A stretch of 64,000 nt of DNA from the NCBI GenBank assembly GCA_030706745.1, contig JAUZNX010000005.1, positions 62,001 through 126,000 of the forward strand, written 5' to 3'. The stretch is from Bacteroidota bacterium (GTDB lineage: Bacteria > Bacteroidota > Ignavibacteria > Palsa-1295). The translations under genes were made by a program, and so were the position numbers. Positions 46,011 to 49,783 of the stretch are shown one piece after another (positions within the stretch are counted from its first letter, which is position 1; every line of letters starts with the position of its first letter). Below the pieces are notes generated by a model that saw only the letters and a list, made by a program, of their open reading frames with translations, was not told where the DNA came from and ran no database searches.

Positions 46011-46859
46011 TCAGTCACTCTCACCGAGCAGGTCTGCTGCCTGATCGCCCAGGATCGGCAGCAACATCTTCCGCAAGCGCGATTTCGCGCGATAAATTCG
46101 AATACGGATCGTCGAAAGCGATGTTCCCGTAATGCGGCCGATCTCGTCGTAGGTCAGCCCATCGTACTCACTCATGATGAGTGCTTCACGAAATTCCTCG
46201 GGCAGCCGCGCAATTGCCTGTTGCAGCAATGTCGCTTGTTCCGCACGTGACATCCGTTCGAGGGGATCGTCATTGTGCGAAAATGCCAGACGCACTTCGA
46301 CTGACGCATCATCATCGAAGTTTTCCGAGTTGCCGACATATTCGGTCGAGGCCCGCTGACGAAACGCCAACTTCTTGGCCGTCAGGCACGAATGCCGCGT
46401 GACCGTGAAGATCCACGCCTTGAACTCGCCGCCTGTAAAGGTCTGCCGGTACTGCGCCAATCGAAGAAACACATCCTGGAATGTGTCTTCGGCTACGTCT
46501 CGTGAGATACCTTCGCTCATGAGCACACGGGCGCAATACGCGAAGATGCTCGTCTTATACCGCTCGTAGAGCATAAGAAACGCAGCTTCATCTCCAGCTT
46601 GATAGCGTTTGAAGAGCGCCTCGTCTGACTCGTGTCCCGGGGCAGCATGTCGATCGGTCGCTGTGTCAATGAACTCATGTTTCCGGCTTCGCTGCCTGGC
46701 GGATTCCTGCATTGCCTCCTGCAAGAGTACCGCCTCGCCGGAGTTCGCAATCGGATCGTCTAATGGCTCACCCTTGCCAAACGAGTGGTCGTCTGGCATT
46801 GGCGGATCGTCTCCTGCGAAGCGTTCTTCGTGCATTTGGTTCGAAGCAGGCACTGGCAT
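46011..46859 (-). CDS. ECF-type RNA polymerase sigma factor
   Basis: A 282-residue sigma-70 family factor. Region 2: DEALFKRYQAGDEAAFLMLYERYKTSIFAYCARVL, then DVAEDTFQDVFLRLAQYR and FKAWIFTVTRHSCLTAKK (DNA melting and -10 recognition). Region 4: LPEEFREALIMSEYDGLTYDEIGRITGTSLSTIRIRIYRAKSRLRKML with the HTH. Regions 2 and 4 are joined by an acidic linker (NSENFDDDASVEV). An unusual N-terminal extension of 75-80 residues, acidic and His-rich, precedes region 2. I used the first ATG (46859); later ATGs or a TTG at 46949 are possible. It directly precedes the anti-sigma-like gene. Confidence 0.87.
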   Translation of the reverse strand: MPVPASNQMHEERFAGDDPPMPDDHSFGKGEPLDDPIANSGEAVLLQEAMQESARQRSRKHEFIDTATDRHAAPGHESDEALFKRYQAGDEAAFLMLYERYKTSIFAYCARVLMSEGISRDVAEDTFQDVFLRLAQYRQTFTGGEFKAWIFTVTRHSCLTAKKLAFRQRASTEYVGNSENFDDDASVEVRLAFSHNDDPLERMSRAEQATLLQQAIARLPEEFREALIMSEYDGLTYDEIGRITGTSLSTIRIRIYRAKSRLRKMLLPILGDQAADLLGESD

Positions 46860-47245
46860 AGCTGTGTAGTGCGCGTCTATGCCATAAGGCCGATGCGTAG
46901 GGAAAAAGTTACAACGTCTCGCGTCCGGGCTGATCAACGAGGATGCCAAAGAACGGCATATTCGTCAGTCAGAAGCTTCGGATCCAAATGCTTTGAAGCG
47001 CACCGGGAAGCAAGCTGCGAAAGCGCGCACTGGCATCCCGATACATGCAAAGAACTTCGCTCGAAGTGAAAAATTACACCTGCATGGCAATTTTTAATCC
47101 ACTTGGCGAATTTCGCCCAGAATAAGCAAGTTTTTGACGGAGTTCCGAAGCGAGAAGCAAGAAGGTCGCAATATAGAAGACGGATTAGCCAGTGGGCGTT
47201 CCCATTTTTCGAGAGCGAAGGTTTCTGGCAGAAATTAATCCATCA
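46860..47245. other. Intergenic region between sigma factor and ogt genes
   Basis: This gap of almost 390 bases has no supported gene. On the minus strand TATATTGC (around 47174-47181) resembles a -7 element and would give the sigma gene a leader of about 310 nt. No terminator-type hairpin was recognised. Confidence 0.35.
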
Positions 47246-47719
47246 TCAGAATAACACAGTCCTCGCTATCCTTGCCTCGTGGTCGAGAAGCCAGCGCTTC
47301 CGCCAGAGTCCGCCGGAATAGCCTGCCAGTCTCCCATCACTGCCAATGACCCGGTGGCAAGGGATAATGATCGCAATCGGATTCGCCCCGTTAGCCCGGC
47401 CAACGGCACGGATGGCTTTCGCGTTATCCAACCGCTTCGCAATGTCGAGATACGAACAGGTTTCGCCGAACGGAATACGTTCCAATTCTTCCCAAACCTG
47501 CTTTTCGAACTCAGTTCCATCCGGCGCGAGTGGAAGATCGAACTTTGTGCGCGTACCGGAGAAGTATTCAGTCAATTGCGCAATGCACCGCTCTACGATT
47601 GGTGAGGGATCATAAGCTTCAATTGATTTATCTTCCTCGACAAAAACCATCGAGCGAATTCCATTCTCATCGGCACGGATGGCGATGAGGCCGATGGGGG
47701 AATTGAAAGTGCCGATCAT
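47246..47719 (-). CDS. ogt: Methylated-DNA-protein-cysteine methyltransferase
   Basis: A 157-residue suicide repair protein that moves alkyl groups from O6-methylguanine to its own cysteine. The active site is PCHRV with Cys121, followed by IGSDGRLAGYSGGLWRKRWLLDHE, the conserved C-terminal block. The helix-turn-helix region with YLDIAKRLDNAKAIRAVGRANGANP is also complete. The N-terminal beta domain is short, as in Ogt. A perfect -7 element lies only 5 nt before the ATG, which predicts a leaderless or nearly leaderless mRNA. Confidence 0.93.
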   Translation of the reverse strand: MIGTFNSPIGLIAIRADENGIRSMVFVEEDKSIEAYDPSPIVERCIAQLTEYFSGTRTKFDLPLAPDGTEFEKQVWEELERIPFGETCSYLDIAKRLDNAKAIRAVGRANGANPIAIIIPCHRVIGSDGRLAGYSGGLWRKRWLLDHEARIARTVLF

Positions 47720-47724
47720 TGACG

Positions 47725-47732
47725 CAAAGATA
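47725..47732 (-). promoter_or_regulatory. -7 promoter element of ogt (TATCTTTG)
   Basis: A perfect TAnnTTTG on the minus strand, with its 3' end 5 nt before the ogt ATG. No good -33 TTG is seen at 19-21 nt. Transcription would start at or next to the start codon. Confidence 0.5.
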
Positions 47733-47837
47733 CATAAACAGAGCTGCTGTGGTCACTGTGCCTGCAATTGAGCGCTAAAGCCCGCGACCACGATTGGCGA
47801 CACCCTGAAACCAATTTTCATCACTTGCGTTACTACC

Positions 47838-47890
47838 TATGTCGTGCTTTGACCAACAGCTTGCTGCGACATAAAATAATAGCTAAAGCG
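47838..47890 (+). promoter_or_regulatory. SAM-II-like riboswitch upstream of the methionine-synthase-like gene
   Basis: TATGTCG (47838-47844) pairs perfectly with CGACATA (47867-47873) as P1. The loop holds TTTGACC and CAGCTTGCTG. The 3' tail AAATAATAGCTAAAGCG carries the AGCTAAAG word, and GCTTT in the loop (47846-47850) can pair with AAAGC (47885-47889) to make an H-type pseudoknot. CTTGC before P1 3', an A-rich joiner and GCTAAAG are features I recall from SAM-II (metA/metX) riboswitches. The gene that follows makes methionine, which fits. Not tested against a covariance model. Confidence 0.62.
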
Positions 47891-47920
47891 TAATTGTAGA
47901 TAACTTCACACTACTTGCAT

Positions 47921-47958
47921 CACCCCGTTGGTCTTTGACGAACGGGGTGTTTTATTTG
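47921..47958 (+). terminator. Attenuator hairpin directly before the methionine-synthase-like gene
   Basis: CACCCCGTT (47921-47929) pairs with AACGGGGTG (47941-47949), followed by TTTTATTTG and then the ATG at 47960. The 3' arm holds GGGGTG, the only Shine-Dalgarno-like sequence, 10 nt before the start. The hairpin could therefore act by early termination, by hiding the ribosome binding site, or both, under control of the riboswitch just upstream. Confidence 0.75.
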
Positions 47959-47959
47959 T

Positions 47960-49783
47960 ATGGACCTGAGCACACTCACCCGCGAGCGCCCGCTCGTTTT
48001 CGATGGTGCCACCGGCACGAACCTGCAGACTCAAGACCTCACGCCGGACGATTTCGGCGGCGAGCATCTGGCCGGCTGCAACGAGTACCTTGTGCGCTCG
48101 AAGCCTTCGGCGGTCGAAAATGTCCATCGTGATTATCTCGAAGCTGGCGCCGACGTGATCGAGACCGATACGTTCGGCTCGGCATCCATCGTGCTCGCCG
48201 AGTACGGACTGGAGTCGCTCGCCTACGAACTCTCCAAAGAAGGCGCGGCGATTGCCAAGCGGATGGCACTTCAGTTTTCGACGAAGGCGAAGCCGCGCTT
48301 CGTCGCTGGTTCGATTGGTCCTACCACCAAGCTTCCATCGCTTGGACATATCCAGTTCGATGTAATGCGCGATTCGTTTTACGAACAGATGGCCGGCCTG
48401 CTCGATGGTGGCGCCGATCTCTTCATCATCGAGACCTGTCAGGACTTGCTCCAGATGAAGTGCGCGCTTGCTGCCGCGCAAGATCTCTTTCGCGATAAAA
48501 AGGCACGCCTGCCGATCATCGCATCGGTCACGATCGAAACGATGGGCACGATGCTCATGGGCACCGAGATCGCCGCGGCGCTGACGGCGCTCGAACCCTA
48601 CGACATCATCTCGGCCATCGGCATGAACTGCGCGACCGGACCGAAAGAGATGGAGGAGAACGTGCGATTCCTTACGCAGACATCTCCCAAGCCGATCTTC
48701 ATTATGCCGAATGCCGGACTGCCTGAGAACATCGGCGGGCATGCGCACTATCATCTTACGCCCGAAGAACTCGAGAAGTACATGACCCACTTCGTCGGCG
48801 ATCTCGGCGTCTCGATCATCGGTGGCTGCTGCGGCACAACAAAGGAGCACATCAAGCATCTTTCGATGCTCGCTGAGCGCATCACGCCGCACGCGCGCAC
48901 GATCGATTGGACGCCTTCGGCTTCCTCGATTTATTCTTCGGTGCCGATGCATGTCGATCCAGCGCCGGTCATCGTTGGCGAGCGGTGCAATACCAACGGC
49001 TCGAAGAAATTTCGCGATCTGTTGCTCAACGAAGATTGGGATGCTGCTGTCTCGATGGCCAAAGAACAGATCAAAGAAGGCTCGCACATGCTCGATCTTT
49101 GCGTCGCGTATGTCGGCCGAGATGAAGTCCGCGACATGCGCGAAGTCATCTCTCGCATGAACACTGCCGTCACCGTGCCGCTCGTCATCGATTCTACCGA
49201 GTACCCTGTCATCGAGGTGGCGCTGAAGCATTATGCGGGCCGCGCCATCGTCAACTCCATCAACATGGAGGATGGCGAAGAGCGGATGGCGCACGTCCTG
49301 CCGCTCTGCAAAAAGTACGGCGCGGCGGTCATCGCACTCACCATCGATGAAGATGGGATGGCCAAGACCCGCGAGAAGAAATTCGAAATCGCCGAGCGCA
49401 TTATCGATCTCTCGGTCAATAAATACGGCATGCGCGAAGAAGATCTCATATTCGACACGCTCACCTTTACGCTTGGCTCGGGCGATAACGAATTCCGCAA
49501 AGCCGGAATTGAAACCGTCGAAGCCATCCGCATGATCAAAGCCGCGCATCCGCAGTGCCGGACGATCCTCGGTGTCTCGAATATCTCGTTCGGACTCAAC
49601 CCGCACTCGCGCCACGTCCTGAACTCCGTCTTCCTGCACCATGCGATCGAAGCAGGACTCGACATGGCGATCGTCCACGCGGCGAAGATCATGCCGCTGC
49701 ACAAGATAGACGAGCGCGGACGCGAACTGGCCAACGAGATCGTCTTCGATGCACGCCGCTTCGAACTCCTGGAAGCGGCGTAA
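47960..49783 (+). CDS. Methionine-synthase-like protein with homocysteine and folate domains only
   Basis: A 607-residue protein that covers the first half of cobalamin-dependent methionine synthase (MetH). Residues 1-310 are the homocysteine S-methyltransferase domain with zinc ligands Cys224 (GMNCATGP), Cys290 and Cys291 (GGCCGTT). Residues 340-600 are the pterin-binding barrel (VIVGERCNTNGSKKFRDLL, DLCVAYVGRDEV, PLVIDSTEYPVIEVAL, IVNSINMEDGEER, GVSNISFGLNPHSRHVLNSVFLHHAIEAGLDMAIVH). It ends in HKIDERGRELANEIVFDARRFELLEAA and stops where the cap and B12-binding domains would follow; these are missing and no remnant lies downstream. A separate cobalamin protein must exist if it is active. 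A SAM-II-like riboswitch and attenuator control it. Confidence 0.88.
   Translation: MDLSTLTRERPLVFDGATGTNLQTQDLTPDDFGGEHLAGCNEYLVRSKPSAVENVHRDYLEAGADVIETDTFGSASIVLAEYGLESLAYELSKEGAAIAKRMALQFSTKAKPRFVAGSIGPTTKLPSLGHIQFDVMRDSFYEQMAGLLDGGADLFIIETCQDLLQMKCALAAAQDLFRDKKARLPIIASVTIETMGTMLMGTEIAAALTALEPYDIISAIGMNCATGPKEMEENVRFLTQTSPKPIFIMPNAGLPENIGGHAHYHLTPEELEKYMTHFVGDLGVSIIGGCCGTTKEHIKHLSMLAERITPHARTIDWTPSASSIYSSVPMHVDPAPVIVGERCNTNGSKKFRDLLLNEDWDAAVSMAKEQIKEGSHMLDLCVAYVGRDEVRDMREVISRMNTAVTVPLVIDSTEYPVIEVALKHYAGRAIVNSINMEDGEERMAHVLPLCKKYGAAVIALTIDEDGMAKTREKKFEIAERIIDLSVNKYGMREEDLIFDTLTFTLGSGDNEFRKAGIETVEAIRMIKAAHPQCRTILGVSNISFGLNPHSRHVLNSVFLHHAIEAGLDMAIVHAAKIMPLHKIDERGRELANEIVFDARRFELLEAA

Follow-up and report, generated by a model that had tools for sequence, protein, structure and literature searches.

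The intergenic region 47720–47959 of the window (the whole 64,000-nt stretch of DNA analysed here) lies between a divergent ogt-like gene and a 607-aa open reading frame (ORF), and it carries an aptamer-like element followed by a hairpin that ends just before the start codon. This raises the questions of which riboswitch class the element belongs to, and by which pairing the aptamer could govern the hairpin. The original prediction proposed a SAM-II-like riboswitch with joint control of termination and initiation; the main point reached here, a proposed swap of the antiterminator partner, was absent from it.

The locus and its split methionine synthase

The host is an uncultured Kapaibacterium. 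The protein encoded by the closest named record (L036, Candidatus Kapaibacterium) is 97% identical, and no match came from a blastn search of plasmids. The flanking genes are:

47246–47719, minus strand: ogt-like methylguanine-DNA methyltransferase gene, divergent (Pfam PF01035 and PF02870)
47960–49783, plus strand: metH-N, the N-terminal half (homocysteine and folate domains) of cobalamin-dependent methionine synthase, 607 aa (PF02574, PF00809, TIGR02082)

The gene downstream of the element, described beforehand as methionine-synthase-like, contains the Pfam domains S-methyl_trans (PF02574) and Pterin_bind (PF00809). Its match to the methionine synthase model TIGR02082 is confined to positions 3–612 of 1182, so that the ORF represents the N-terminal half of a MetH that is split here. 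Its partner gene, metH-C, is found on another contig (G000:C10:82143); two unlinked genes thus encode the enzyme, with the division at model position 612. Split methionine synthases occur in Kapaibacteria and some other lineages, while the enzyme is full length in others. In several relatives, metH-N and metH-C each have their own SAM-II leader.

A SAM-II aptamer upstream of metH-N

The aptamer comprises the following parts:

47831–47907, plus strand: SAM-II aptamer, Rfam SAM_alpha match (covariance-model match, family homologues)
47838–47873, plus strand: P1 hairpin, 7 bp, TATGTCG (47838–47844) with CGACATA (47867–47873) (sequence, predicted fold)
47860–47864, plus strand: conserved CTTGC, 5′ strand of P2a (sequence, Rfam alignment)
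47882–47891, plus strand: 3′ strand of the P2 pseudoknot, GCTAAAGCGT (pair counts in leaders)

Rfam model RF00521 (SAM_alpha, SAM-II) matches 47831–47907 over its full length (1–79/79) with 34.1 bits, falling 1.9 bits short of the curated cut-off of 36 bits, and no Rfam family reaches its gathering threshold in the window. The covariance-model comparison thus favours SAM-II by E-value (2.9e-6 in 301 nt, 8.4e-6 genome-wide) rather than by the cut-off. SAM-V (RF01826), the other class put forward, was rejected, as its model gave no match at E ≤ 10 in 47720–48020; low-score matches to PyrR and BTnc201 were at chance level and were likewise rejected. The RF00521 element is present in 11 of the 13 family genomes, in 10 of them above the cut-off. 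Orthologous metH-N leaders have the same element, with scores of 37–45 bits (above the cut-off) in L003, L006, L009 and L013 and of 31–34 bits (below it) in L014 and L015.

The words CTTGC and GCTAAAG (the latter at 47882–47888) are present as originally described, and with them the core of a P2 pseudoknot between the P1 loop and the downstream GCUAAAG strand. The P1 stem and the placement before a methionine/SAM metabolism gene also agree with SAM-II. Like the known SAM-II riboswitch (RF00521, metA element), the element combines P1 with pseudoknot P2, has the conserved words UUUGA, CUUGC and GCUAAAG, precedes a methionine gene and is followed by an intrinsic terminator. Unlike that element, it stands before a split metH and not metA, metX or metY/Z, and its P2b is only 2 bp long. 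From its sequence, we take the element for a genuine SAM-II riboswitch of a known kind, joined to a terminator platform and probably able to bind SAM.

Two further kinds of SAM-II element were observed. Those of L169 (G000:C10, upstream of metH-C), L171 and L158 have L3 insertions of 20–30 nt and are missed by Rfam even at E 0.01; such elements escape the model, and RF00521 counts for this group are therefore underestimates. In other class members (L022, L025, L026, L031, L033 and L119), SAM-II-type elements occur in tandem, spaced by about 100 nt.

Upstream of the aptamer lies a conserved element:

47807–47832, plus strand: promoter-like pair GAAACC (47807–47812), 15 nt, CGTTA (47828–47832) (conserved pattern in leaders)

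The pattern GAA[AC][CT]-N15-17-[CGT]GTT occurs at a near-fixed place in 16 of 18 Kapaibacterial SAM-II leaders, against 0.06 expected from shuffles (maximum 2 in 2000). If used, the pair would put the transcription start near the first base of P1. Written as GAACT-N16-CGTT, the element, at a near-fixed distance before P1, resembles promoters of extracytoplasmic-function (ECF) sigma factors; the exact pattern is not common in the genome. Near the riboswitch, at 46011–46949 on the minus strand, lies the gene of an ECF-like sigma-70 family factor that has only regions 2 and 4. A candidate sigma-70 site at 47849 was rejected, being inside the aptamer and near chance level.

The putative terminator hairpin

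Downstream of the aptamer, the leader continues with:

47910–47919, plus strand: linker word ACTACTTGCA, the same in all six of the closest metH-N leaders (alignment)
47921–47949, plus strand: intrinsic-terminator hairpin CACCCCGTTGGTCTTTGACGAACGGGGTG of 9 bp, a G-G mismatch, 3 bp and a UUU loop (predicted fold, equivalents in relatives)
47944–47957, plus strand: GGGGTG, the Shine-Dalgarno-like 3′ arm (47944–47949), and the U-tract TTTTATTT (47950–47957) (sequence)

The hairpin, CACCCCGTTGGTC-TTT-GACGAACGGGGTG, starts about 30 nt after the aptamer core, is followed by TTTTATTTGT and ATG, and ends 10 nt before the ATG at 47960. Its place and T-run are thus as first reported, while the description of a perfect hairpin has to give way to 9 bp and 3 bp separated by a G-G mismatch. 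A strict terminator scan did not list 47921–47949, which it misses because of this inner mismatch. The hairpin cannot terminate an upstream gene, since the neighbouring ogt-like gene is divergent, and this candidate role was ruled out. A stable GC-rich hairpin followed by a U-tract is what an attenuator calls for in a leader, and an equivalent hairpin with a T-run precedes the gene in 8/8 metH-N and 10/10 metH-C leaders examined. In all eight metH-N leaders it ends at or near the ATG, which supports the attenuator part of the original prediction.

Terminators downstream of SAM-II aptamers are common in published work: Corbino et al. 2005 (PMC1273637) described putative intrinsic ones after many SAM-II elements, and Barrick and Breaker 2007 (PMC2258182) also place them there. 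The latter authors set up the category of “dual transcription and translation attenuation” for terminators that contain the ribosome binding site (RBS). The supposition that the arrangement is unusual for this class is not supported. As in S. meliloti metZ and metA (PMC9373788), a SAM-II aptamer is followed by a terminator, which there is predicted (metZ) or shown (metA) to limit transcription. The S. meliloti metA leader differs in that its Shine-Dalgarno (SD) sequence is in the aptamer, translation starts 74 nt downstream, and no antiterminator is predictable for its terminator.

A proposed different partner for the terminator arm

The pairing between aptamer and terminator was compared in 8 metH-N leaders, 10 metH-C leaders and 35 others from the wider class. 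In the window leader two strands are concerned:

47851–47857, plus strand: L1 / P2b 5′ strand GACCAAC, complementary to 47927–47933 and proposed to act as antiterminator (helix energy, compensatory changes, partition function)
47927–47933, plus strand: GTTGGTC within the 5′ arm of the terminator, target of L1 (complementarity, conservation)

L1 GACCAAC and arm GUUGGUC form 7 bp, the alternative aptamer–terminator pairing that an attenuator requires, here found by computation. Over the eight metH-N leaders the L1-arm helix has a mean energy of −10.4 kcal/mol, compared with −1.9 for shuffled arms (0/300 as good); the helix was noticed before being tested, so the choice is post hoc. The 3′ strand of P2 gives no signal with the arm in the same leaders (−2.1 vs −2.6 kcal/mol shuffled; 215/300 shuffles as good), and was rejected as the antiterminator of the window leader, its complementarity not exceeding chance. 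Elsewhere the picture is reversed. P2-3′ pairs with the arm at a mean of −9.8 kcal/mol in metH-C leaders (n = 10) and −5.6 in the others (n = 35), with 0/300 shuffles as good, and the mean for L1 in those 35 leaders is −1.4 kcal/mol. The metH-C and other class leaders (L005, L027, L032 and others) resemble the window leader in their aptamer and in having a terminator upstream of the gene (in metH-C, near the start codon); they differ from it in that the arm is complementary to the P2 3′ strand (e.g. GCGUC with GACGC) and not to L1.

Partition-function calculations on transcripts ending before the 3′ arm agree with the helix energies. The arm pairs with L1 in seven of the eight metH-N leaders, and the mean of all eight is 7.2 arm-L1 pairs vs 1.3 arm-P2-3′ pairs, compared with 0.5 vs 5.4 in metH-C and 0.1 vs 4.9 in the others. 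These calculations cannot represent P1 and the L1-arm helix in one structure, because the two together form a pseudoknot. In the predicted folds of the window leader, the L1-arm helix is present at 108–114 nt and the terminator from 120 nt.

The alignment of the metH-N leaders points the same way. Across the 7-bp helix 95% of cells are paired, against 7–46% for slid partners, and at one pair A-U, G-U, G-C and U-A are all seen. The arm GUUGGUC is constant in six leaders, while its partner strand in the terminator varies, even to G-G mismatches. In L009, from another genus, both strands differ (L1 GACCUU, arm AAGGUC) yet are still complementary (own shuffle p 0.013). The exception is L038, where the L1 helix is weak (p 0.08) and the arm prefers P2-3′; for this reason its share of the compensatory changes may be chance. 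Six of the eight are closely related to one another, so the independent evidence comes mainly from L009 and L014, together with lineage-specific extensions of the helix in L003, L006 and L013.

The aptamer has changed in the same leaders. In the window, P2b is down to the pairs 47857–47890 and 47856–47891, and it measures 2 bp in metH-N leaders of this genus and 3–4 bp in relatives. P2b pairs 8 and 9 (numbering of this analysis) are kept in 8/8 metH-N leaders, and pairs 10 and 11 are broken in 7/8, the exception being L009 of the other genus. P2b pairs are kept in 38/40 cases in metH-C and 59/64 in the other class leaders, where slid-register controls gave 2–9/40 and 8–16/64.

A lineage-specific change of antiterminator partner in Kapaibacterial metH-N leaders is, on this comparative evidence, probable. 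An explanation that we consider unlikely is that the leader is an ordinary SAM-II attenuator in which L1 and the arm are complementary by chance, a coincidence that close relatives have inherited, with switching achieved otherwise, for example through an effect of SAM-bound P2 on hairpin folding or through a linker stem. It is consistent with the nearly identical L1 and arm of six leaders and with the within-group test, in which arms swapped among metH-N leaders gave a p of only 0.038. It does not sit easily with L009, whose different L1 and arm are still complementary, with the loss of the usual P2-3′ partner in the very leaders concerned, or with an arm that is kept while its terminator partner drifts. 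The conserved linker word, just before the terminator, also speaks for it. No convincing pairing partner of ACTACTTGCA was found; a stem with the bases after GCTAAAGC clearly beats shuffles in stability only in L003, L006 and L014, and a local stem of this kind is weakly suggested.

Termination or ribosome binding

The original prediction had one hairpin govern termination and, through concealment of the SD sequence, ribosome binding as well, a model that now appears improbable. GGGGTG is indeed the only SD-like sequence before the ATG. As GGGGUG it pairs with the anti-SD at −8.9 kcal/mol, 10 nt before the AUG, and related leaders keep GGGGUG, AAGGUG or AGGGUG; the category to which such a hairpin would belong exists (PMC2258182). 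However, GGGGUG is also forced by the stem pairing with CACCCC, and the 3′ arms of L038 and L009 are poor SD matches. SD usage was tested directly, with the first ATG taken as the start of each ORF, which blurs the signal. ORF upstream regions in 464 kb of the genome showed no SD enrichment (14% vs 10–13% in control windows), and neither did related loci, whereas the same test on Paenibacillus loci (16 ORFs) gave 62% vs 0–14%. The 16S tail was not found in the assembly. The RBS argument is weak because the genome shows no SD signal, and SD control appears unlikely, no SD usage having been seen. The published dual attenuation platforms resemble the present leader in that the 3′ side of the terminator, owing to its nearness to the ORF, overlies the region of initiation, but they assume a true RBS in the 3′ arm, and the genome studied here shows no SD usage signal. 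A transcription attenuator is thus the better reading, and the hairpin may hinder initiation by mere closeness to the AUG.

It is very improbable that the hairpin is a constitutive, SAM-independent terminator downstream of an otherwise-acting or decayed aptamer: the S. meliloti metA terminator does follow a SAM-II aptamer without a predicted antiterminator (PMC9373788) and the window element falls below the Rfam cut-off, but the core is conserved, homologues score above the cut-off, and most class leaders have a terminator arm that matches the aptamer.

Proposed mechanism

The reading that we prefer, and think likely, is that metH-N is controlled by a SAM-dependent OFF-switch acting through premature transcription termination, in which the antiterminator partner has been swapped. 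When SAM is bound, the pseudoknot would lock in L1 and the P2 5′ strand, the terminator at 47921–47949 would form during transcription, and RNA polymerase would stop in the U-tract before the start codon. Without SAM, P1 would stand and L1 would be exposed, so that GACCAAC could capture the arm GUUGGUC before the 3′ arm is made; termination would then be hindered and metH-N transcribed. In published probing of another SAM-II riboswitch, P1 formed independently of SAM, but P2 and L1 were exposed in its absence (PMC10907184); L1 is thus plausibly free to seize the arm at low SAM and locked when SAM is bound. Such locking at high SAM gives the OFF logic expected for a methionine synthase.

Because the full terminator is the more stable structure, antitermination by L1 would have to be kinetic. 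The L1-arm helix leaves CACCCC and GGGGUG (6 bp) free to pair, and antitermination may therefore be incomplete, as the residual stem could terminate. Termination in vivo, the antiterminator role of the L1-arm helix and the kinetic order are what we infer from the complementarity and the predicted folds. Any extra translational effect would come from the hairpin being close to the AUG and not from a specific SD site.

The difference from other SAM-II riboswitches would then lie in the antiterminator, proposed here to be L1 with the P2 5′ strand and not the P2 3′ strand. On balance, though by a slender measure of confidence, we lean towards a metH-N subtype of SAM-II in which the loop wrapped around SAM in the bound state (L1 with the P2 5′ strand) would directly capture the arm in the free state, the loss of P2b would be a trade-off, and metH-C would keep the ancestral P2-3′ switch.

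Significance

The wiring of one aptamer to different expression platforms is less studied than riboswitch aptamers themselves. Here, terminator-type SAM-II control is extended to split methionine synthase in relatives of the Bacteroidota. In one genome, two copies of one aptamer precede the genes for the two halves of an enzyme and appear to control termination through opposite strands of the same helix of the pseudoknot, and the pair of metH-N and metH-C leaders is a compact natural test of expression-platform evolution.
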